Of a stretch of 24,982 nucleotides of DNA, positions 2,106 through 24,982 are shown one piece after another. Origin of the DNA: a virus. The notes under the pieces were generated by a model. The model did no database searches. It saw only the letters and a list, made by a program, of their open reading frames with translations, and was not told where the DNA came from. Position numbers and translations under genes: made by a program. The stretch lies in IMG/VR virus record IMGVR_UViG_3300045790_002527, positions 1-24,982 of that record; one strand, 5' to 3'. Within the stretch, counting starts at the first letter, position 1, and every line of letters starts with the position of its first letter.

Positions 2106-2348
2106 TTAATAAACATTATGATCTGGAGTATAAGAAACTATTTCTTGTACTGTCGAACGATTACAAGTATTGCAACTATATGTTTTTGCATATTGAATTT
2201 TCTCTTGCATGTGATTTAGAAATTGAATTAAAGAAGTATCTACCGGCTTATCATCTACTTTATATTCGTTACCTCCAAACCAAGAGTTAATTGCACCGCA
2301 TCTTCTACATTTAGTTTCATACTCAAACTCAATACCCTTTAATTCCAT
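2106..2348 (-). CDS. Small zinc-ribbon protein
   Basis: An 80-residue protein with two CxxC pairs, CRRC at about residues 14-17 and CNTC at about 59-62, about 45 residues apart. This spacing suits a zinc-ribbon fold that folds back on itself. The second pair is followed by NRSTVQEIVSY. The region between the pairs is polar with a short helix. It is the last gene of the leftward late block, 27 bp after the large terminase gene, and has its own TATATTTG box in that gap. Zinc binding is inferred from the cysteines. The family and role are not recognised. A second zinc-ribbon protein lies at the far end of the window (24422-24784), but the two show no clear similarity beyond the cysteines. Confidence 0.65.
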   Translation of the reverse strand: MELKGIEFEYETKCRRCGAINSWFGGNEYKVDDKPVDTSLIQFLNHMQEKIQYAKTYSCNTCNRSTVQEIVSYTPDHNVY

Positions 2349-2363
2349 TTAAAAAATTTTATT

Positions 2364-2371
2364 CAAATATA
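2364..2371 (-). promoter_or_regulatory. Possible -7 box for the zinc-ribbon gene
   Basis: On the minus strand 2371-2364 reads TATATTTG, an exact TAnnTTTG match, 15 bp upstream of the ATG at 2348. A well-spaced -33 box is not evident. The gene may be expressed both by read-through from the terminase operon and from this site. Confidence 0.3.
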
Positions 2372-2375
2372 AACT

Positions 2376-4070
2376 TTATCCAACAATAACTGGTTCACTC
2401 CATTGTTGTGGCAATCTTCGTTCACTAAGTTTAACCCATTTAGGCCTATACATTAGATATTTAAAGGCATCACTAAAATTTGTACTATACATTGGCAATT
2501 TTCTAAGTGGTAACTTTTCCGAGCTTTTATCTTTCTGGAGGCGCATACTTCCGTTTCTGTCTTTAGACATTTTAATTTTTGCTAAACTTAAACTGCTTTT
2601 CAGCTCTCTACATTGGAGCTCATCTATACGAAGCTGTGGCAGACCTTCGTAATAGTCTCCCATAAATTTTTTCATAAAGTTAAATTCCTGCTCATGGTAA
2701 ATGTCACCTTGACCTTCACTCATTAAATTTACTTTCCAACCCGTACTTTTACCCTCATAATTTTCAATATGGTCTTTAATTTCTGTGGCCCAATCTCTTT
2801 TTATTTTTTTGTATTGATTACCTGCCCTGTCATAATACATATTTAAAACCTTACGACGATGTGGCTCAAAAAAGTCTAAGAATTGTTTTGCGAGCTCTTT
2901 ACTACTTTGTGGGGCAAGTGTATAAAAGTTCTTTAAAACGTTATAATAACGTCTTGCATCCTGCCCTATTACCATACTCGTCATATCTCCAAAATCTATC
3001 CCACAATCTAATGGGAATTTAGCATTACAACGATTTAAAGCGTAGCTAGTTGGTGTTATAGCATCATTTAAACCATAATTATCTATATAGTATTGATTAT
3101 TTACACCATCACTATAAAAATGATGATCGCCCAGGTTACCGTAAAATTTCTCTCCTTTTTTTACATTAGGACGTAATGATAAAATAGATGCTTTAAACTC
3201 TTCAATACCGTCACTCTCCAGAACGTCTTTATAATAACCCGCCTGAAGAATGTCTGCATTTACGAAGGACGATGCAATATAGAAAAGGGTGCTATCCACA
3301 CGTGTCTGCATCCACTTCATATACCATCGGGTATAATTTTTTTGTATAAGATCTATTTTATGTTGCGGCGCTTTTTTTCTGCAAGCCTCATAAAACTCAT
3401 GACGTATCTCATTTAAAACAGAACCAGCTCTTAGTGCAAGTTTCATTTTCTCGATATCCATATTTTTTTCATTGTCTAGAATCCAATCAAAATCACCTTC
3501 AGTTACATTTGGCATATCTGTGGTAAAGGTTAATCCTCGATAATATATACTATGAGCCACTTCTGGAAAACCACGCCTTGCAGGCATTAATTTCTTTAGC
3601 TTGTTTGGATTAAGATATTTTGCTTCATCACCAAATATATGCTGGTATGAGTTACCTGCTAAAGATGATACCTGGTCCATACTTCCAATGTTGAAAAAAC
3701 AACCGTTATGTATGGATATGGTATGCTTGTAATTTAGAATTGGTGAATACGGAATATTAAAATGGTCTGGAGGACGCTCATCTGTAACATAATGCACTCC
3801 TTCTATCCAACCTTTACGCTCTCTCCACCCTTCAATTATCTTGGGAACAATATTGGTAAGTGCATTTACATACGTATCACTTACCAGGGCGAACATAGCT
3901 CGTGGCATATCATAACAGATATCAATACTTCTATCTGCCAGGATATCTGTAGATTTTGCAGTACCACGACCGGAGACAAGATGTAAATTTTTAGGTGAAA
4001 TAAAATCTATCCCTTGCTTAAGCCAAGAGGCATAACGACCCTCTACATTATTATTCCCTAGGTCTATCAT
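2376..4070 (-). CDS. terL: Phage terminase large subunit (packaging ATPase-nuclease)
   Basis: This 564-residue protein is a large terminase: the ATPase that drives DNA into the prohead and the nuclease that cuts concatemers. Counting from the ATG at 4070, Walker A is GRGTAKST at residues 34-41 and Walker B with the catalytic acid is IFGDEA at 145-150. The C-terminal RNase H-like nuclease shows its three expected acids in GIDFGD (D359), YYDRAGN (D414) and TNFSDAF (D534). Length is normal for the family. A longer frame begins at a GTG at 4106, but the ATG at 4070 gives a smaller overlap (20 bp) with the preceding gene and a sensible N-terminus. It follows two small-subunit candidates in the P4 late block. 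No portal gene follows it, which is unusual. Confidence 0.92.
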   Translation of the reverse strand: MIDLGNNNVEGRYASWLKQGIDFISPKNLHLVSGRGTAKSTDILADRSIDICYDMPRAMFALVSDTYVNALTNIVPKIIEGWRERKGWIEGVHYVTDERPPDHFNIPYSPILNYKHTISIHNGCFFNIGSMDQVSSLAGNSYQHIFGDEAKYLNPNKLKKLMPARRGFPEVAHSIYYRGLTFTTDMPNVTEGDFDWILDNEKNMDIEKMKLALRAGSVLNEIRHEFYEACRKKAPQHKIDLIQKNYTRWYMKWMQTRVDSTLFYIASSFVNADILQAGYYKDVLESDGIEEFKASILSLRPNVKKGEKFYGNLGDHHFYSDGVNNQYYIDNYGLNDAITPTSYALNRCNAKFPLDCGIDFGDMTSMVIGQDARRYYNVLKNFYTLAPQSSKELAKQFLDFFEPHRRKVLNMYYDRAGNQYKKIKRDWATEIKDHIENYEGKSTGWKVNLMSEGQGDIYHEQEFNFMKKFMGDYYEGLPQLRIDELQCRELKSSLSLAKIKMSKDRNGSMRLQKDKSSEKLPLRKLPMYSTNFSDAFKYLMYRPKWVKLSERRLPQQWSEPVIVG

Positions 4071-4674
4071 CTTGGAAAAATTTAACTGGCAGTAACATAG
4101 AATCACGTTTTGCCATAATTTTTTGAGCTTCAGTCAAGCCCTCTAATTCATCTATAAACGTGCCCAATTTATATCTATCCATTGGCATCATTCCTAAAGC
4201 TTCTGCATCACTAGTATATAATTTTACTGGTTTAGCTAACAGCTCAGACGGAAACTCTTGTCCATCTGTTTGATCTAATTGTAACACTTGGGCTACACTT
4301 TTAATTTCTTTAATAGCAGCAATTACTTCTTTTGCATCCTTAGCTAAAACCAAGGCTGTATTTATCCCTTTTTCCATAAGGTCTGCTAGGCGATAACGAT
4401 GTGCGTTTTTGCTAATAGTCCTATCACCATAGAAATACTCTAGCATTTCATCGTGCAACTTTGCAGCCAGATAATTGGAATACCCATTAAACTTTGTAAG
4501 ATGATTTATAATCGCATCTCTGCTACCATAATCCTTAATACGCAAGTGCATACCGTGCACCTTTTCCAGTTCTAACGCATAGGCTAAAACTTCTGCAGGT
4601 GCGTTTGTCATATCGCCGTGATCGCGAAACTCCACTAAATCTTCTAAACTTAATTCTTTGAATTTATTCAACAT
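4051..4674 (-). CDS. Terminase-associated protein, possible second small-terminase component
   Basis: A 207-residue, predominantly helical acidic protein between the HTH protein and the large terminase. Its start codon overlaps the stop of the HTH gene (TAATG), and its end overlaps the large terminase start by 20 bp, so the three are almost certainly co-translated. Residues 1-100 contain several amphipathic helices (e.g. LAAKLHDEMLEYFYG). Residues about 105-140 form another helical stretch rich in K/E/A. The last 30 residues are polar. No catalytic motif is visible. Position suggests a packaging accessory role, for example the oligomerising part of a split small terminase, but this rests on gene order only. 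Confidence 0.6.
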   Translation of the reverse strand: MLNKFKELSLEDLVEFRDHGDMTNAPAEVLAYALELEKVHGMHLRIKDYGSRDAIINHLTKFNGYSNYLAAKLHDEMLEYFYGDRTISKNAHRYRLADLMEKGINTALVLAKDAKEVIAAIKEIKSVAQVLQLDQTDGQEFPSELLAKPVKLYTSDAEALGMMPMDRYKLGTFIDELEGLTEAQKIMAKRDSMLLPVKFFQDDRPRE

Positions 4675-4997
4675 TAGTCTGTCATTTTATTGAGAAACCC
4701 ACCAAATAATAGTTGATGTTTAATGTCTTCGGTCTTACGTCGTTCTACCTCTTTAGTGTGTTGTTGGTCTGCAGTAAGATTACCGTTCTTGGCATTTTCT
4801 AAACGCTTTTGAGCAATAATAAATTCTGCCTGCAGTTGCCCTTTATCGTAGCGTAAGCGTACTTCACTTTCTTTATTATACCAGGAACTAAGAAATACGG
4901 CCTTATCTACATCGAGATATTTGGCAATGCGCACTGGAGAATAGTTGCACGCTGCAAGATCCTCGATAGCTTCGTATTCTTCTTCAGTAAGGCTCAT
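4674..4997 (-). CDS. HTH protein, probable terminase small subunit
   Basis: A 107-residue protein with an N-terminal helix-turn-helix at about residues 4-35: LTEEEYEAIEDLAACNYS, then PVRIAKYLDVDKAVFLS. This resembles the DNA-recognition domain of small terminase subunits, which bind packaging sites. A long charged helix (about 45-95) with many K, E and Q could mediate oligomerisation. It lies two genes before the large terminase and is translationally coupled to the gene between them. A general transcription regulator is the main alternative, but its place inside the packaging cluster favours a packaging role. Confidence 0.6.
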   Translation of the reverse strand: MSLTEEEYEAIEDLAACNYSPVRIAKYLDVDKAVFLSSWYNKESEVRLRYDKGQLQAEFIIAQKRLENAKNGNLTADQQHTKEVERRKTEDIKHQLLFGGFLNKMTD

Positions 4998-5000
4998 AAA

Positions 5001-5267
5001 TTAAGGCATTTCATTATATCGCAAATTCAAATATTCAATAAATTGCTTCAATTCTTTTTTATTCATTTCTAAAGGTGCATAATCACCTTGCTTGTCTTCA
5101 ATTTCATTAGTTACATCTATAAAAAAAGCTTCACCTTCACATTCCATATCAGAAAGCCTACACTTCATTTCCACAAACCCAGATGGTAAAAAACCATCAT
5201 TTAAAATTGTAAATATCTCATACCCTCTATCTCCAATAATTTCCGTCTTTGTTTCTACCATAATCAT
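5001..5267 (-). CDS. Small hypothetical late protein
   Basis: An 88-residue acidic protein. It begins at the ATG directly abutting the previous stop codon (TAAATG); a second in-frame ATG two codons later is an alternative start. The middle is strand-rich (YEIFTILNDGFLPSGFVEMKC) and the end forms an amphipathic helix (KKELKQFIEYLNLRYNEMP). Two cysteines lie close together near residues 34-42. I do not recognise a family. Tight packing between the Acb2-like gene and the small terminase candidate shows that it belongs to the P4 operon. Confidence 0.6.
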   Translation of the reverse strand: MIMVETKTEIIGDRGYEIFTILNDGFLPSGFVEMKCRLSDMECEGEAFFIDVTNEIEDKQGDYAPLEMNKKELKQFIEYLNLRYNEMP

Positions 5268-5489
5268 TTATTTAATATGCAAATCTTCGTTTGGTAATTT
5301 GTTTGTGTTGATGTGAGAACGTACTGCCGCATCTTTAGCTTCAAGTAATTTTCTTAACACCACGCTTTTTTCAGCACTGCCGGTATGCGTTTCTTCTATA
5401 GTATGAGCTAAATCACAAAAGGGCTTTGAGGTCTTTTGTAAATGCTCAGGAAGATGCTCGTATTCGAAAAATTCTAATATTGGATTCAT
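5268..5489 (-). CDS. Small two-helix phage protein, possibly Acb2/Tad1-hairpin-like (anti-CBASS/anti-Thoeris candidate)
   Basis: A 73-residue protein whose pattern is diagnostic of a widespread small phage family: EHLPEHLQKTSKPFCDLAHT (residues 11-30), then after a short loop LRKLLEAKDAAVRS (45-58). This predicts two antiparallel helices joined by a turn. I recall similar HLPEHLQ/SKPF/LRKLLEAKDAAVR proteins in many phages, and the helix-turn-helix pattern resembles the hairpin domain of Acb2 and Tad1, proteins that sequester cyclic nucleotide signals of CBASS and Thoeris defence. The link to Acb2 is from memory of motif shape and needs a profile search. It lies among small genes of the packaging operon, directly abutting the next gene. 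A purely structural or regulatory role is the alternative. Confidence 0.5.
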   Translation of the reverse strand: MNPILEFFEYEHLPEHLQKTSKPFCDLAHTIEETHTGSAEKSVVLRKLLEAKDAAVRSHINTNKLPNEDLHIK

Positions 5490-5493
5490 AATT

Positions 5494-5658
5494 TTATTTT
5501 TTAGTTGTTTTCCGTTTCAAGTACTGAATTTTCGCATCCTCGGAAGGAAAAACAATTTGACGAATGATTTTTTTGTAAACAACTGGCCTTACTTTGTCTC
5601 TTCTTTTTATAAATAAACCTCTATCATTAGCTCTACGTTGAAGTCTGGATTCTTTCAT
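5494..5658 (-). CDS. Short, very basic 54-residue protein
   Basis: An ATG at 5658 opens a 54-residue frame ending at TAA 5494-5496. It begins MKESRLQRRANDRGLFIKRR and ends KRKTTKK. About a third of the residues are lysine or arginine and few are acidic, so it should bind nucleic acid or a strongly negative surface. It fits the 185-bp gap between the DUF3307-like gene and the Acb2-like gene exactly: 16 bp after the former and 4 bp before the ATG of the latter. That spacing matches the rest of the operon and is the main reason to call it real. Function unknown. Confidence 0.6.
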   Translation of the reverse strand: MKESRLQRRANDRGLFIKRRDKVRPVVYKKIIRQIVFPSEDAKIQYLKRKTTKK

Positions 5659-5674
5659 ATTTAAATGTTTACAA

Positions 5675-6031
5675 TTAGATTAATAAAATGATACACCACA
5701 AAATTTTACATCCAATGTGTAAAGCTTGGTCTTGGTGAATGTTAATGTAGTTGTCACATTTAAGGAAGTCAATGATCCAATGACATACAAATTCTAAGAA
5801 TGCAATAAAAACGTTACCTGTAACTAAGAACACCGCGCCTGCATGTGTAAGAGCGTGAGCTGATAACCAATACAACCAAACTGTTGTAATTGGTTTTTGT
5901 CCTGGAGGAATCTTAGAAACATCTAAAGGTCTATTTCTGTTTTTTCCTTTAGCCATTGCATCTATTTGCAACGGATAATCTGCAACAGCATGACCTATAA
6001 TAAGTAAGAATATCATTGATAAAATTTCCAT
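5675..6031 (-). CDS. DUF3307-like multi-spanning membrane protein
   Basis: A 118-residue membrane protein. It shows the DUF3307 pattern: GHAVADYPLQ near the N-terminus (H14, D18, Q22), a second membrane helix with SAHALTHAGAVF, then HWIIDFLK, and finally DQALHIG with a C-terminal hydrophobic helix. Three to four transmembrane segments are likely. The conserved H/D/Q residues within membrane helices are a family hallmark, but the biochemical function of DUF3307 is not known. Homologues occur in bacteria and in phages. A holin-like role can be imagined, but the gene lies far from the endolysin, so I do not propose it. It starts 2 bp after the PLD-like gene and shares the P4 transcript. Confidence 0.65.
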   Translation of the reverse strand: MEILSMIFLLIIGHAVADYPLQIDAMAKGKNRNRPLDVSKIPPGQKPITTVWLYWLSAHALTHAGAVFLVTGNVFIAFLEFVCHWIIDFLKCDNYINIHQDQALHIGCKILWCIILLI

Positions 6032-6033
6032 AA

Positions 6034-6654
6034 CTAAACTGCTTTTAAACCATTGGCGTCTGCAATGTGGCGAATGGTAACGTTGTTAAATAATTCTTTT
6101 CTGAACTCGTACACACTTTTACTATTAGCAAAAAGATACTGCTCGTACATTGCGTTTTCACTCCAATTACCACTACCCTCTACAATATAATGTCCTTCAT
6201 CTGTTTGCATTAAGGCCACTTTTGCGTGGGACCAACAAAACTGAACTTTAATATTGCCTCTGCTTGATATCATAGCCGTAAGCAAATCAATAGTCTTAGG
6301 GTTTCGCTTAATTAAACTATCACTAATGCACAGCGTAATAGCATCTATCATACCCTTGTCGTGAAGCTCTACAAGAGCCTCAATAGCTCTCCTACTAATG
6401 CTATAAGTAGCAGCGTATAAGTGCCTAATGGTATGTAGTTTTGCTACTGCAGGAATAAAGGTGAATGCATTGAATTGATTTTCTGTCTGCAGAAACATAA
6501 ATTCTTCATTGCTTGGCAACCGCTTTAGATCATCCTCCAGATGAGATAGCTTATCGAAATGCGCTAACACATACTTGGAGCGAAAAACGGAAGATGCAGC
6601 GCTCTTAACTACTGCACCTTCAGGTTTTTTTATGTCAAAAAACTTATTTTTCAT
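6034..6654 (-). CDS. Phospholipase D-like (half-HKD) domain protein
   Basis: A 206-residue protein with one PLD-type motif: SHAKVAL at residues 142-148 (H143, K145), followed by EGSGNWSENA at 159-168 (G160, S161, N163). The spacing resembles the HxK...GSxN core of the superfamily, though the usual aspartate is displaced (D152). A single HKD per chain implies a dimer, as in the Nuc-like nucleases. The N-terminal 60 residues form a separate, mainly helical segment. Superfamily members include nucleases, lipases and structural relics, and the substrate cannot be read from sequence. It overlaps the preceding gene by 11 bp and belongs to the P4 late block, so it may be a virion or packaging-associated nuclease. 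Confidence 0.65.
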   Translation of the reverse strand: MKNKFFDIKKPEGAVVKSAASSVFRSKYVLAHFDKLSHLEDDLKRLPSNEEFMFLQTENQFNAFTFIPAVAKLHTIRHLYAATYSISRRAIEALVELHDKGMIDAITLCISDSLIKRNPKTIDLLTAMISSRGNIKVQFCWSHAKVALMQTDEGHYIVEGSGNWSENAMYEQYLFANSKSVYEFRKELFNNVTIRHIADANGLKAV

Positions 6655-19718: not shown

Positions 19719-19961
19719 TTAATCATCATTTTTCATAAAAGTTGATAAGCTGTGGTCCACAAGTGGAATGTAAATCATTTCTTTTTGCAGAAACATTCTC
19801 AACACAAAAGGATCTTCATCTCCTTGGAGGACAAAAAAGCCCTGTACAGATTCTTCATCTGGTGAACAAATTGCATAAGGTTGACCGATTTTTAAGGTTT
19901 GTTGATCAAATTTTAAATCTGCCGGTTCTGCTAATCTCAATTCAATTTTTTTTAAAGCCAT
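19719..19961 (-). CDS. Small hypothetical protein, first gene after the repeat cluster
   Basis: An 80-residue protein. The ATG at 19961 (MALKKIELRLAEPADL) is preferred over an in-frame GTG at 20000, which falls inside a GTGTGGGA repeat. The product is acidic and strand-rich (QPYAICSPDEESVQGFFVLQ) with a methionine-containing helix near the end. No family recognised. As first gene downstream of the 19990-20168 repeats it is the best candidate to be controlled by them. Confidence 0.55.
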   Translation of the reverse strand: MALKKIELRLAEPADLKFDQQTLKIGQPYAICSPDEESVQGFFVLQGDEDPFVLRMFLQKEMIYIPLVDHSLSTFMKNDD

Positions 19962-19990
19962 ACCATATAGGGTTAAATTAATAATTGTAT

Positions 19991-20168
19991 TCCCACACAC
20001 CCACGCAACTGATTATCAAGTTGTTATATTTTTTTTGGTGTGGGATGTGTTCGGATTAAAAAAGTATTCCGAACACTTCCGAACACTTCCCACACTCTTT
20101 CGAACACTTTTATTTATACTTAACTTTTTCATTCTTAATTACTTATATATTGTGTGGGATTGTTCGAA
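19991..20168. repeat. Iteron-like repeat cluster, candidate origin or operator
   Basis: Two short words recur. GTGTGGGA occurs four times in alternating orientation: 19991-19998 (minus), 20038-20045 (plus), 20088-20095 (minus), 20152-20159 (plus). GTGTTCGG or GTGTTCGA occurs at 20047-20054 (plus), 20069-20076, 20079-20086 and 20100-20107 (minus), with a near copy TTGTTCGA at 20160-20167. Fused, they form the 17-bp unit GTGTGGGAWGTGTTCGG on the plus strand at 20038-20054 and on the minus strand at 20095-20079, differing at one base. The minus-strand copies at 20069 and 20079 are exactly 10 bp apart. A/T-rich DNA lies at 20108-20150. Apart from these repeats the gap holds no gene. Adjacent helicase and primase genes favour a replication origin; an operator for the small early genes is the alternative. 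Confidence 0.65.
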
Positions 20169-20170
20169 AC

Positions 20171-22282
20171 TCAAAAAGGTAAATCCTCTTGACTACTATT
20201 CATTTTTTTTGAATTAGGGGTCGCAGGGGAATTTGGAAATGATTTTGAAGCCTTCTCCTCATCACTGTCAAACAAACTATTTTGATGAACCTGAAAATCT
20301 ACTGCACTTCTGATTTCATCCTCACAATACAGCAAGCTAATGTCAACTACATAAACGCTAGTGTTGCGAGCATTTCGCCCTTTGTCCATACGTTCCTTAT
20401 CTTTATATCTTACAAAGCTTGCTTCTTCTTTTAAGCGCTCTGTCATAGTGCTAGTTTGTGGTGGTGCACTTTCTCCTCTATACTGACTAAACCATTGGCG
20501 CTGTATTCTTATGTAACAGCTAGTAAAATTGAAATACAATAAATTACCGTCTAGTTTAAAATCGTGACCGTGTTCTAATCGCTCCATATGACTTCCGCGC
20601 ATACTCGCTAAGAAACAATTCCACCATTTAGTAATAATGCTAGCGTTACTCATAAGACCCATTTGTCGTTTAAGCGTCTTGTCGAAATGGGACATCATAT
20701 CTTGATGACTGAATGTAAAATCTATATTGGGCACATCTTTAAACATTTTGTAAAAGGTGCCTAACACAGCAAGATTTGTAATCATACGGCTATTAGCTTC
20801 CTTGTTACGTTCTGTGATAACTGCTTTAAATTCTCTAAATGTTGGTTTAAAGTTGTTTTTAACCATTTCTCTATGGTGCAGGAACAGCTCCGTAAACCCA
20901 CTGATTCCTTTCTTAGTCATATCACTAAGCTTTTCATACTCTTTAGTTTCTGTATCTGTAAATGTGGTTTTATCCATAAAGTTCCAAACCATACGTGTTA
21001 TTAAAGCTTCTTGGTCTGCAGGATAGTTACCTGTAATTAATGGTGATGATAAAATAGGTATGCTCTCTGTACCAACGTGGCTATTTATATTACCACGTTT
21101 ATACCCGTTTCTGTCCCATAAACCCTTAAGAATACCATCGGTTTGAGGGTCTCCATTTTTATATTCAGAAAGTTGCGATATAAGATTGCTAAACTGAGCA
21201 AACTCACGCACTTTTGCCTTAAGAGTTGAAGCTCCTCCTTCTAAATTAATTGGCGTTTGAGGTTTACCGAAAAAGGATTGACAAACGTCTGCTAATTGAT
21301 CTTTACCAGAAGATGCTTGGCCATAAAGGAATAAAAGAGGGAAACCATCAATCTGATCTACAATTATATCCTGAAACATACTAGAAACAGTAAACAGTAG
21401 TCCCATCATACCGTGTTCTCTGTGCACCTTTATAACTTGACTTGCGTAATTGGAGAACGAAATTGGTGGTGGTAAACACAATACTTTCTTTTGAGGCTCG
21501 TAGTGAAACGGACTGTTTTTAAATATGTCATTTGCCGAAGGCACGTAGTAGCTTGTACCTTTGTGCTCAAAAACTCCGTTTTGATCTATTTCAATCGGGT
21601 CCTCTCCTGGTAATGTAACTTTGTTATTCCAAACCCAAAATCCTTCTGCCTGCCAACCGAGAACATCTATCTTACGACCCACACCCATTTTATCCATTAA
21701 ATACCACTTAAGCTTTTGGTGCTCAGCCCGTCCACCTCTCCATTGGTAATTGCCTCTGTCTGTAATTTCGCTTTCAAAACTCTCTGGTTTATTAAGCCTA
21801 CTCGAAGGTATATCGAATACTGCAGAAACATTTTCGATGTTTTTTACTCGTATTAATTTTGAAGCTTCTTTATCATCATTCATATGTTGAATAACTTCAA
21901 TAGAAAAATTACTTACTGACTGAAAATTATAAGGTGGCTGTGAACCCGTTTGCACCCAAATTTGATTCTTAGCCATAAAAAGTTGATATTTTTTTATAGT
22001 AGCCTCAACCTCTTCTAGCTTAATACCTAAGTTTTTAGGTAGTCTATAAAATTCATCTGGCTGAATTTCTCCGAACGTTAATGGAGAATTATCTTTATTA
22101 GATTTTGAAGTCGGCTTTAACCAGGAATTAATCTGAGTTTTTGACACCTTACTTTTTTGCTGCAGCATACCTGCATAGATAGTTCGCATACTTTCATCAT
22201 CAATAGATTTAATAATGATTGCTAACTTTTTAGCTTCAGATACAGTTTCAATAGCATCCTTGCCTTTAAACCTATGCTCCAT
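20171..22282 (-). CDS. Replicative helicase-like P-loop ATPase (DUF927/SF3-like)
   Basis: A 703-residue phage replication protein. Residues 1-60 are helical and polar. Residues about 175-260 carry the GNYQWRGGRAEHQKLKWYL and VLGWQAEGFWVWNN features that I associate with DUF927-type helicase proteins. The ATPase core begins with FPLLFLYGQASSGKDQLAD, Walker A at 321-328. A Walker B-like strand NLISQLSEYKNG at 366-377 has S-E where D-E/D-D is usual. A probable arginine finger lies in ALITRM (R430). The tail (about 560-703) is polar and probably unstructured at the end. It starts directly after the primase stop codon (TGAATG). Helicase activity is inferred from domain type and the primase neighbour. 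Confidence 0.7.
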   Translation of the reverse strand: MEHRFKGKDAIETVSEAKKLAIIIKSIDDESMRTIYAGMLQQKSKVSKTQINSWLKPTSKSNKDNSPLTFGEIQPDEFYRLPKNLGIKLEEVEATIKKYQLFMAKNQIWVQTGSQPPYNFQSVSNFSIEVIQHMNDDKEASKLIRVKNIENVSAVFDIPSSRLNKPESFESEITDRGNYQWRGGRAEHQKLKWYLMDKMGVGRKIDVLGWQAEGFWVWNNKVTLPGEDPIEIDQNGVFEHKGTSYYVPSANDIFKNSPFHYEPQKKVLCLPPPISFSNYASQVIKVHREHGMMGLLFTVSSMFQDIIVDQIDGFPLLFLYGQASSGKDQLADVCQSFFGKPQTPINLEGGASTLKAKVREFAQFSNLISQLSEYKNGDPQTDGILKGLWDRNGYKRGNINSHVGTESIPILSSPLITGNYPADQEALITRMVWNFMDKTTFTDTETKEYEKLSDMTKKGISGFTELFLHHREMVKNNFKPTFREFKAVITERNKEANSRMITNLAVLGTFYKMFKDVPNIDFTFSHQDMMSHFDKTLKRQMGLMSNASIITKWWNCFLASMRGSHMERLEHGHDFKLDGNLLYFNFTSCYIRIQRQWFSQYRGESAPPQTSTMTERLKEEASFVRYKDKERMDKGRNARNTSVYVVDISLLYCEDEIRSAVDFQVHQNSLFDSDEEKASKSFPNSPATPNSKKMNSSQEDLPF

Positions 22283-23425
22283 TCACCAAGAAAAACCTTC
22301 TTCACGATAATCTCTTTCTTGAGACATTTCAGATAAATCAGGTTTTTTGCCTATCCAATTTTTCCAAAGTCTTACAGAATCATCTGGGTCTTGATTAAGT
22401 AATAACAATTGCACTCTAAAACCTAACTTAAGTAATTGAGGTATGTACTTGAGCATTGCTTTTTTACCTGCAGAGTCAGGGTCAAAGCATAGTATGATTT
22501 TCTCTGCAAACTTGCGTAGTATTTTCATCTGCCTTAAGCTAACCGCAGTACCGCAAGATGCAATGGTGTTTAAAATGCCGTGCGTTTGCCAAGCAATAAC
22601 ATCGTTATAGCCTTCAACTAACCAAGCTTCAGAGGTTCCTACAATTGTTTCTTTTGCTTTATCTAAACCAAACCAAAATGTTTCTTTCTTATAGAGGTCT
22701 GAATCAGTTGAGTTAAGCCACTTAGAATATTTACCAGTATTACTTAAATCACGACCAGCCAAACCAACAGGTAAAAACGATTTGCCTTTTCGTTCAATAA
22801 GTGGATATATGACACGGTCTTTAAAAAAATCTGCAGTGTAGCTGCTATATTCTTTAACAAGACCAATCTCCTTAGCATCTGTAACACGACCTTGAGGTAA
22901 GCATAAATCATAAATAAATGTGCCTCCAGGAGCATAACCAATACGATAGGCTTCCACCTCTTTATCTGTGTATTGGCGCTTGCCGTAAACCTCTAATTTA
23001 GCAGGGTGACTTTCGGGTAAGTTTTTAAAAGCTTCCTCATATTTACGAATAGTACTTTCTAATAATGGTTGAAGCTCTAACCTACGCTCTTGTATCTTTT
23101 GCTGCTCCTTGGCATCCTCGCTATTGTCATACTCAATCTCGATGCTATATTTTTTTGCCAGGTACTCAATAGCATCTGGATAAGTCATTTTTTCACTAGT
23201 CATTAAAAAACTAATAGCAGAGTTACCACCTTTACCTGTTGCAAAACATTTCCAAATACCTTTTGTTGGCGAAACAGTAAAGCTTGGCGTGCTCTCTTTT
23301 TTGAACGGACTTAACCCAATATGGTTAGCGCCTTGTTTTTTAAGCTCAATAAATTCTTTAATCACTTGTAAGATATCTGCACTTTCCTCGACGTGTTCTA
23401 TGGTAGATTGTTTGATATATGGCAT
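22283..23425 (-). CDS. DnaG-type DNA primase with degenerate zinc finger
   Basis: A 380-residue primase that would make RNA primers for phage DNA replication. Residues 1-75 follow the CHC2 zinc-binding domain (GLSPFKKESTPSFTVSP; WKCFATGKGGN), but of the usual C, H, C, C ligands only one cysteine (C60) is kept; the others are S39, K42 and T63. The RNA-polymerase core is present: RIGYAPGG, FKDRVIYPL and AGRDL at about 161-226. TOPRIM follows with VEGYND (E271), CFDPDSAGKK (D315, D317) and DPDD at 346-349. There is no C-terminal helicase-binding domain of full DnaG, as usual for phage primases. It lies between two ATPases, 4 bp after one and directly abutting the other. Confidence 0.85.
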   Translation of the reverse strand: MPYIKQSTIEHVEESADILQVIKEFIELKKQGANHIGLSPFKKESTPSFTVSPTKGIWKCFATGKGGNSAISFLMTSEKMTYPDAIEYLAKKYSIEIEYDNSEDAKEQQKIQERRLELQPLLESTIRKYEEAFKNLPESHPAKLEVYGKRQYTDKEVEAYRIGYAPGGTFIYDLCLPQGRVTDAKEIGLVKEYSSYTADFFKDRVIYPLIERKGKSFLPVGLAGRDLSNTGKYSKWLNSTDSDLYKKETFWFGLDKAKETIVGTSEAWLVEGYNDVIAWQTHGILNTIASCGTAVSLRQMKILRKFAEKIILCFDPDSAGKKAMLKYIPQLLKLGFRVQLLLLNQDPDDSVRLWKNWIGKKPDLSEMSQERDYREEGFSW

Positions 23426-23429
23426 TGAG

Positions 23430-24419
23430 TTACTTTATATATTGAACAAAAAAAGAAGTTGGTATTTCTATATTGTAAATACCAGCACCGCGAAGGATCT
23501 TATACATTGTCATTAACACAGCTATGTTCGAGGTTTGTTGTGACAAGTCTAGTTTTGGAATTCGACTCGCTAATATTTCTTTTATCTCTGGATACAAAGC
23601 ATTAAAACGGATAGAAAACTCTTCTTGTCTAAGATTAATCTTATTTCTAATATTGTAGAAATCGTTACGTCCTAATGTTCGACTGAGCAATAGATGTTTT
23701 AATTCCTGATATTTACTGAAATCTGTAAATTCTAAATGAACAGGAATAGTTCTAGATTGTAAACCAACATCTTTTATTTTGTCACAACTTGAAATTATTG
23801 TTGCATAATTTAAAGGTGTTATTCTTTTTTCAATTCCAGAATCAAGAGAACCTGTTTGAAAAAATTGATTATCATACATTTTTTTCAATGTTGAATTAAG
23901 CCTATAATCATCATTGTCTTCATAAAAATCATCGATGACAATAATTGATTCATTACTAGTTTCACTTATTTTCTTTAAGTTTTTTATTGGAAATGGTGGG
24001 TTTAAAAAAGATTTGTTAGCATAAAATAAACGGTTAATAGCATCTGCTAAACTTGTCTTTCCAGATGCCGGATTTCCATAGATATTTAACAAAGGGAAAA
24101 AACCTGTAGTTTCAATAATTTTTCTACGAATTACTGAAGCTGCACCAAAAAGCAGCGCTAATACTGCGACTTCACCATGTACTTCACTTACTAGACTTGC
24201 CATAGATTGAAAATTAATTTCTGATATATGTTCCTGTAGCTCCTCAGATATAATTTCGTTTTGTGTGTGACTAACTAAATTGGTGAATTCAATTTCGTTT
24301 TCTATCAAAACTCGATTAGAAAAGTGTTCCTGAAGATGACATTCTTTTTCAGCTAATACTTTTAGCCTGGTTAAATGAGTGTTCCCTGAAAGCCTTGTAG
24401 TTATTTGGAATAGTTTCAT
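23430..24419 (-). CDS. Small P-loop ATPase homologous to the helicase-like protein
   Basis: A 329-residue ATPase with Walker A GNPASGKT at 115-122, Walker B IIVIDD at 159-164, and a probable arginine finger in LQSRTIP (R223). It aligns with the ATPase part of the 703-residue protein: NFQSMASLVSEVHGEV against FSNYASQVIKVHREHG, GFFPLLNIYGNPASGK against GFPLLFLYGQASSGK, and TSNIAVLMTMYKILRG against ITNLAVLGTFYKMFKD. It lacks that protein's N-terminal 200 residues and C-terminal tail. The two are probably ancient paralogues. It is encoded just before the primase and may act as a helicase loader, a co-subunit or an independent translocase. Confidence 0.65.
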   Translation of the reverse strand: MKLFQITTRLSGNTHLTRLKVLAEKECHLQEHFSNRVLIENEIEFTNLVSHTQNEIISEELQEHISEINFQSMASLVSEVHGEVAVLALLFGAASVIRRKIIETTGFFPLLNIYGNPASGKTSLADAINRLFYANKSFLNPPFPIKNLKKISETSNESIIVIDDFYEDNDDYRLNSTLKKMYDNQFFQTGSLDSGIEKRITPLNYATIISSCDKIKDVGLQSRTIPVHLEFTDFSKYQELKHLLLSRTLGRNDFYNIRNKINLRQEEFSIRFNALYPEIKEILASRIPKLDLSQQTSNIAVLMTMYKILRGAGIYNIEIPTSFFVQYIK

Positions 24420-24421
24420 AA

Positions 24422-24784
24422 TTAAATCTTTTTAATTTTATTAGTTTTTGGAATTCTTAAGCGGTATAAATTTTGTAGAAAATGACCTTGTAGTAATTTT
24501 GATACTGAAGCTTTACAAGTATCACATTTAACACTGGTAATATGATCTTCGATAATTTCTGAATCATCTGCATCTATACTGATATCTTGAGTCATATCAC
24601 CACCACAACAAGGACATTCTACTTTTACGCTAATGGTGATTTCTGGTTCAATTTCAAAAAGCTCAAACTTATTATTGTGAAAGCGCGCTAGTTTTTTATT
24701 GCGATCTAGCACCACTTTTACGTGTAATTCATTATTCAAATTAACAGGTGAACCATCTACATAATCAAAAGGTCTATTTCTCAT
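24422..24784 (-). CDS. Zinc-ribbon protein of the replication operon
   Basis: A 120-residue protein with a beta-rich N-terminal half and a C-terminal zinc ribbon: CPCC at about 58-61 and CDTC at about 86-89, roughly 25 residues apart. An acidic segment (DADDSEIIEDH) lies between. The last 20 residues are basic (IPKTNKIKKI). The ATG overlaps the stop codon of the preceding gene as ATGA, and the next gene begins 2 bp after it. A nucleic-acid-binding role in replication or transcription is inferred from the ribbon and the neighbours. No family recognised. Confidence 0.65.
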   Translation of the reverse strand: MRNRPFDYVDGSPVNLNNELHVKVVLDRNKKLARFHNNKFELFEIEPEITISVKVECPCCGGDMTQDISIDADDSEIIEDHITSVKCDTCKASVSKLLQGHFLQNLYRLRIPKTNKIKKI

Positions 24785-24982
24785 AAAAACTCAGGATTAG
24801 AAACTTCAATATTTTTAGCCTTATTAATTGAGGCTAATTCCTCATTAAAAGATTTTAAGAATCCTTCATAACGTGGCATTAAAAACTCTCTATCATCGTC
24901 TGTAAATTGGTCGTGAGTTTTAAGTTGCTCAATATTTGCTTTTACACGATTAATATCACTTTTAATCGCTTCTGGTGTTCGT
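24781..24982 (-). CDS. C-terminal end of a helical protein (cut by window edge)
   Basis: An open frame enters from the right edge on the minus strand and ends at TGA 24783-24781, overlapping the next ATG by 4 bp. The 67 visible residues are polar and helical (EAIKSDINRVKANIEQLKTH; MPRYEGFLKSFNEELASINK), ending VSNPEFL. The start and most of the protein lie outside. The tight overlap places it in the same replication operon. No family can be assigned from this fragment. Confidence 0.6.
   Translation of the reverse strand, partial: RTPEAIKSDINRVKANIEQLKTHDQFTDDDREFLMPRYEGFLKSFNEELASINKAKNIEVSNPEFL

Follow-up and report, generated by a model that had tools for sequence, protein, structure and literature searches.

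Probable replication-initiation module of a flavophage: one primase-helicase gene split by a stop codon, with an exchanged Walker A/Walker B residue pair and an accessory ATPase paralogue

Our analysis indicates that two homologous ATPases and the primase between them, in a 24,982-nucleotide stretch of viral DNA (positions 1 to 24,982 of IMG/VR record IMGVR_UViG_3300045790_002527, hereafter the window), probably form the replication-initiation module of a flavophage of Duneviridae-like type. The account that we favour is that of one initiator, a DnaG-type primase joined to an MCM-like AAA+ helicase, which here is split into two reading frames, has an exchanged ATP site and is accompanied by an accessory short ATPase. 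The first-pass annotation had instead read the locus as a long and a short ATPase on either side of a primase, forming an asymmetric helicase or a helicase-loader pair derived by duplication. The open reading frames themselves, the primase between them and the motifs and shared arginine reported for them were all confirmed, and the features of the locus are as follows.

20035 to 20168, no strand: candidate replication origin, a repeat array immediately 3' of the helicase gene
20171 to 22282, minus strand: 703-residue long ATPase, the helicase half of the primase-helicase (N-terminal beta domain, then AAA+ core, then C-terminal domain)
20993 to 20995, minus strand: R430 of the long ATPase, candidate arginine finger (Arg in 35 of 35 clade members and 20 of 20 outgroups)
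21164 to 21184, minus strand: Walker B of the long ATPase, LISQLSE, with S372 at the Asp position and the catalytic Glu, E373, retained
21299 to 21322, minus strand: Walker A of the long ATPase, GQASSGKD, with K327 and D328 (Asp at the Ser/Thr position)
22283 to 22285, minus strand: in-frame TGA dividing primase from helicase, abutted by an ATG at 22280 to 22282
22283 to 23425, minus strand: DnaG-type primase half of the split gene, with zinc ribbon CHC2, DNAG_N and Toprim domains (Pfam matches, E 1e-28 to 7e-16)
23430 to 24419, minus strand: 329-residue short ATPase, a paralogue of the AAA+ core
23751 to 23753, minus strand: R223 of the short ATPase, equivalent of R430
23928 to 23945, minus strand: Walker B of the short ATPase, IIVIDD, ordinary
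24054 to 24077, minus strand: Walker A of the short ATPase, GNPASGKT, with the ordinary Thr
24422 to 24784, minus strand: 120-residue zinc-ribbon-like open reading frame, first gene of the tightly packed set

The picture of two ATPase genes flanking a separate primase gene did not hold, for the primase and the 703-residue frame are one gene. They share a reading frame, and at their junction, TGG-TGA-ATG, a single TGA separates them. At the same place the virus contig L003, 98% identical in the helicase, reads TGG-TTA-ATG, with Leu at the stop position, and has one open reading frame of 1084 residues, of which the long ATPase of the window matches the C-terminal part. Nearly all remaining relatives are likewise fused, at 1046 to 1207 residues; the exceptions are L061, whose linker contains an in-frame TAA, L013 and L034, whose copies are frameshifted, L046, where primase and helicase form a separated pair, and proteins that consist of the helicase alone, for instance in L007 and L045. 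The locus also has the layout of PHROG 22657, a DnaG-like primase followed by an AAA+ helicase in one frame, with one TGA interrupting it: the primase matches profile positions 1-373, the 703-residue protein 497-1175 and the short ATPase 755-998. Two of the exceptions merit a separate remark. The TAA of L061 (751-3171, in a contig binned as Oceanicaulis) is an independent second stop in the primase-helicase linker, and in L013, Flavobacterium phage 6H, the primase-helicase (2128-6071) is annotated as three open reading frames, where frameshifts or sequencing errors are likely because the relatives have one.

How is the TGA to be understood? Measured against L003, dN/dS is 0.015 in the helicase half, which is strong purifying selection, and 0.083 in the part of the primase that matches. 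Since both halves are under purifying selection, the stop is one of three things: a recent change, a stop tolerated because translation restarts at the adjoining ATG, or an error. It is a real possibility, though one that we lean against, that the TGA arose in sequencing or assembly and that the phage simply encodes the fused protein: TTA in L003 and TGA here differ by one base, selection acts on both halves, and the relatives are nearly all fused, whereas the stop sits in the linker with an in-frame ATG immediately after it, and the independent relative L061 likewise carries an in-frame stop there. Recoding of TGA under an alternative genetic code was also considered and is unlikely, because the other three TGA-ending genes would gain only 1 to 11 codons. 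If the split is genuine, the TGA before the internal ATG would yield two polypeptides, the second probably by termination-reinitiation.

Upstream of the split, the comparison of window and L003 shows a mosaic: divergence affects the initial ~110 codons of the primase and everything upstream of them, and the remainder of the primase is 90-98% identical in nucleotides. Across window positions ~23080-24982 identity to L003 falls sharply, from 94-98% to about 75%, inside the primase gene; this drop marks a recombination boundary near the extra ATPase gene. The zinc-ribbon-like frame lies directly upstream of the fused primase-helicase gene in L003 too.

The proposed homology of the two ATPases proved sound (BLASTP, 25% identity over 249 residues, E=7e-17), with GNPASGKT/IIVIDD in the short protein, GQASSGKD/SQLSEY in the long one, and R223 aligned with R430. 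The matching end that had been described is present in both, as NIAVL in the short and NLAVL in the long protein, but it lies near the C-terminus only in the short one, falling at residue 503 of 703 in the other. A Foldseek comparison, suggested with the original claim, gave the same answer for both AlphaFold models, namely the MCM-like helicase fold of Cch (PDB 5dgk). For the long ATPase (pLDDT 85) the best matches were Cch (E 1e-14) and SaPIbov1 Rep (8tch, E 4e-13), far ahead of all others; for the short one (pLDDT 75) the best PDB match was Cch (E 2e-6). Because the proteins are homologous and their best matches lie in the same fold, they do not fall into unrelated clades; they belong to one MCM-like helicase group. 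In searches by sequence against the PDB the long ATPase gave no match and the short one only a weak AAA match (E 0.12), while profile searches with the short ATPase returned only weak RFC matches and, among defence families, a marginal AbiLi match (E 7e-4).

The short ATPase is a core and little else. It has an unrelated N-terminus of 67 residues, is without primase, beta domain and C-terminal domain, and keeps GKT, DD and R223, so that at T122 and D163 it is a canonical P-loop NTPase; its sensor-1 Asn is replaced by C212 and two Arg that are invariant elsewhere by Q265 and Q294. In a family-profile search of 31 related viral records a second ATPase was found only in the window and in L030. 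The copy in L030 (1498-2652), a truncated helicase paralogue of 384 residues with beta domain and core, lies upstream of a complete primase-helicase; its Walker B reads QD, its sensor Asn has become Arg and its equivalent of R430 Lys, and it keeps the two Arg that the short ATPase lost. Close relatives of the short ATPase were found neither among viral contigs by peptide patterns nor by the DNA pattern for FPLLNIYG, which returned only remote helicases.

Phylogeny speaks against the suggestion that the pair arose by duplication within this phage group. A recent duplication of the window helicase would place the short ATPase in a clade with that helicase and L003, and the test rejects this clade (p-AU 0.0018). 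Two other groupings are not rejected: both extra copies joined to the flavophage clade as a whole (p 0.65), and the two copies joined to each other (p 0.25). The branches of the two copies are 3.5 and 3.6 changes per site long. Since each copy has lost different parts of the machinery, accessory or decaying paralogues fit better than a conserved loader. The short ATPase would then be an accessory, rapidly evolving paralogue of the AAA+ core, with nucleotide-binding motifs kept and coupling residues lost. It may join hexamers of the helicase as a subunit and so modulate or poison their action, or it may be a passenger. We think it most likely that it modulates these hexamers or disturbs them (or is carried along); an essential loader is the less likely role. 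That it is a non-functional passenger outright, a decaying core fragment of a diverged helicase gained by recombination, with the L030 copy to be read likewise, strikes us as somewhat unlikely. The very long branches, the loss of different catalytic residues in each copy, the low GC of the gene (0.30 vs 0.37) and the sharp divergence between window and L003 at this very place all speak for it, but the frame of 329 codons is intact (expected by chance with P ~6e-13), Walker A and B are retained, the genes are tightly spaced, and such a copy occurs upstream of a primase gene on two separate occasions.

We turn to the ATP site of the long ATPase, whose Walker B had been described as divergent. 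Here our reading differs, for the site departs from a canonical P-loop NTPase in two places together (D328 and S372): Asp follows the Walker A Lys (GKD), where the Mg-binding Ser/Thr would be expected, and Ser stands at the position of the Walker B Asp (LSE). This pair occurs in all 42 distinct family rows that have Asp at K+1, which make up the flavophage clade; typed family rows whose K+1 residue is Ser, Thr or Gly carry Asp or Glu at the Walker B position, the one departure being the L030 copy (Ser/Gln). In a tree of 61 rows with both columns masked, each trait changes once and on the same branch (support 100/99.6), and because of this single origin within the family the 42 rows represent conservation and not 42 independent events. 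K327, E373, N419 and R430 are invariant in the helicase clade. Two unselected DNA-pattern scans of IMG/VR, one for the Walker A pattern FLYGPxx[ST]GKD and one for the Walker B pattern, agree with the association in both directions within the family. The former gave 33 loci, of which 31 belong to the helicase family and all read LSE[YF], YSEY or WSEF, the other two being DnaC/IstB-like proteins with hhhSD; the latter gave 19 loci, with GKD in all. The Walker B of the long ATPase is not decayed but one half of a strictly conserved residue exchange with Walker A.

In P-loop NTPases generally, the Ser/Thr at K+1 and the Asp of Walker B are hydrogen-bonded and central to catalysis, and have been proposed to form a proton trap common to these enzymes; the pair is (almost) strictly conserved, the commonest exception being Gly at K+1 (PMC9599734). 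The long ATPase uses the same two positions with the residue types exchanged. We found no description of such a D-S exchange of Walker A and B in the open-access literature. With the exchange, the metal would still face a carboxylate and a hydroxyl, and their hydrogen bond is probably maintained; charge and hydrogen-bond partners would be preserved, with the carboxylate moved to Walker A. Because the residues are invariant and no other helicase was found, we infer that the exchanged site is active; no DnaB-type helicase was detected in 17 phage records, some of them fragments, and control genomes were positive.

Does the pair occur outside this family? A scan for GPPGTGKD gave 43 readable open reading frames. 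The frames that could be assigned to P-loop ATPase families are a further helicase with WSEY, eleven DnaC/IstB-like proteins that read hhhSD, an AAA_5 protein of CobS/NorQ-like kind with VLSDID and two PhoH-like proteins with YVSEGQN. Five frames are not P-loop proteins, and about twenty kinase-like frames read SDGG, an ambiguous alignment in which the Walker B residue could be Asp rather than Ser. The kinase-like phage proteins are L174-L177, L181-L183, L187, L189-L193, L195, L199, L205, L206, L208-L210, L212 and L213, and the DnaC/IstB-like ones L130, L143, L179, L180, L194, L197, L200, L201, L207, L211 and L214. In the PhoH-like proteins L202 (2328-3545, with a PIN domain) and L196, Walker B reads YVSEGQN instead of ILDEAQN. 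When one representative per family was aligned by HMMER with solved structures (PhoH 3b85; CobS 9ujv and midasin 5jcs; DnaC 3ec2 and 6qel; Pfam was also used), the Ser fell on the Walker B Asp. It is tempting to propose that the two residues of the Ser/Thr-Asp pair can change places together and leave a working enzyme, and that this arose independently in MCM-like phage helicases, DnaC/IstB, CobS/NorQ-like AAA+ proteins and PhoH; we hold this broader proposal tentatively, regarding it as almost an even call.

The main counter-evidence to activity of the exchanged site comes from clamp-loader delta'. A related pattern in 793 bacterial genomes yielded two genuine P-loop genes, both delta' subunits in which Ser aligns on the Walker B Asp of gamma/tau, and across 72 Bacteroidota delta' loci (L218, L219, L220-L289) Asp is frequent at K+1, the Walker B position holding Ser in 31 of 49 and, in the remainder, one of Met, Leu, Phe, Cys, Thr, Ile and Pro. 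The E. coli delta' is known not to hydrolyse ATP. For this reason the D/S pair alone is no proof of activity, and in delta' it may mark a degenerate site. Accordingly one might take GKD/SE for a nucleotide site without hydrolysis, on a protein that acts as an origin-binding scaffold while a host helicase unwinds, and a DnaB_bind domain, for which 14 of 33 family members show a weak signal in their linker, would suit such a role as does the delta' parallel. We regard this as unlikely: the pair and the acid after it are only loosely kept in delta', whereas D, S, E, N and R are invariant in the helicase clade, and no other replicative helicase gene turned up in the 17 phage records searched.

A further reading makes the long helicase the catalytically weak component and gives the active part, as loader or as partner subunit, to the short ATPase, whose Walker B is complete. 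It is improbable in spite of the homology of the two, the shared operon, the intact Walker A/B and R223 of the short protein and the unusual Walker B of the long one. Of the 31 related records, 29 have only the long protein, which makes an obligate helicase/loader pair unlikely; the nearest relatives with solved structures are self-loading, at iterons resembling those that adjoin the window gene; the short ATPase has lost its sensor Asn together with two more Arg that are otherwise invariant, while every long-protein member keeps Glu, sensor and Arg; and a recent duplication is rejected.

A candidate origin lies next to the gene. Positions 19956-20215, directly downstream of the helicase gene, give the strongest short-repeat signal of 381 sliding windows on the contig (z 8.1, median 0.3); the repeats GTGTTCGRA and GTGTGGGA occur there in either direction. 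Of 11 relatives scanned, 10 have their maximum at this position too, and the repeats vary in sequence from phage to phage. By this computed signal the array is a candidate iteron origin. Most likely the C-terminal domain of the primase-helicase would bind the array next to its own gene, the protein would assemble there as a hexamer, as a self-loading initiator, and then unwind the origin, and the primase, whether attached or a polypeptide of its own, would prime synthesis.

An active exchanged site would offer a natural experiment on P-loop catalysis, a test of what the Ser/Thr-Asp pair does, and a strictly conserved D/S exchange in a helicase would directly constrain the proton-trap model (PMC9599734). 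It would also counsel caution, in that an odd-looking Walker B would be no ground for calling such proteins dead.

Among known systems, some phage members of the DnaC/IstB helicase loaders have independently acquired GKD with a Walker B Ser. Unlike these loaders, neither window ATPase matches that family. The short one gives no hit to IstB_IS21 at E<=1, and its kin is the helicase. The closest likeness in fold is to the DUF927-type, MCM-like initiator helicases Cch of SCCmec type IV and SaPIbov1 Rep, the best matches for both window ATPases. The 703-residue protein has no Pfam match at E<=1, DUF927 included, so we do not assign it to the DUF927 family; the likeness that we claim is one of fold and gene layout. 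The iterons to which SaPI Rep helicases bind follow immediately after the helicase genes (PMC7581432), the position in which the window repeats lie. The window family differs from Cch and SaPIbov1 Rep in being mostly fused to a DnaG-type primase and in the GKD/SE exchange at its ATP site. To the same family belong the Duneviridae proteins annotated as "toprim domain-containing protein" or "DNA primase" (Flavobacterium phages FPSV-D35 and laban6-1; PHROG 22657), fused primase-helicases with the GKD/LSE motifs of the window; unlike the window, their copies are unsplit, lack a second ATPase and are annotated only as primase or hypothetical. The annotated "primases" of flavobacterial phages become candidates for complete initiators with an adjacent origin.
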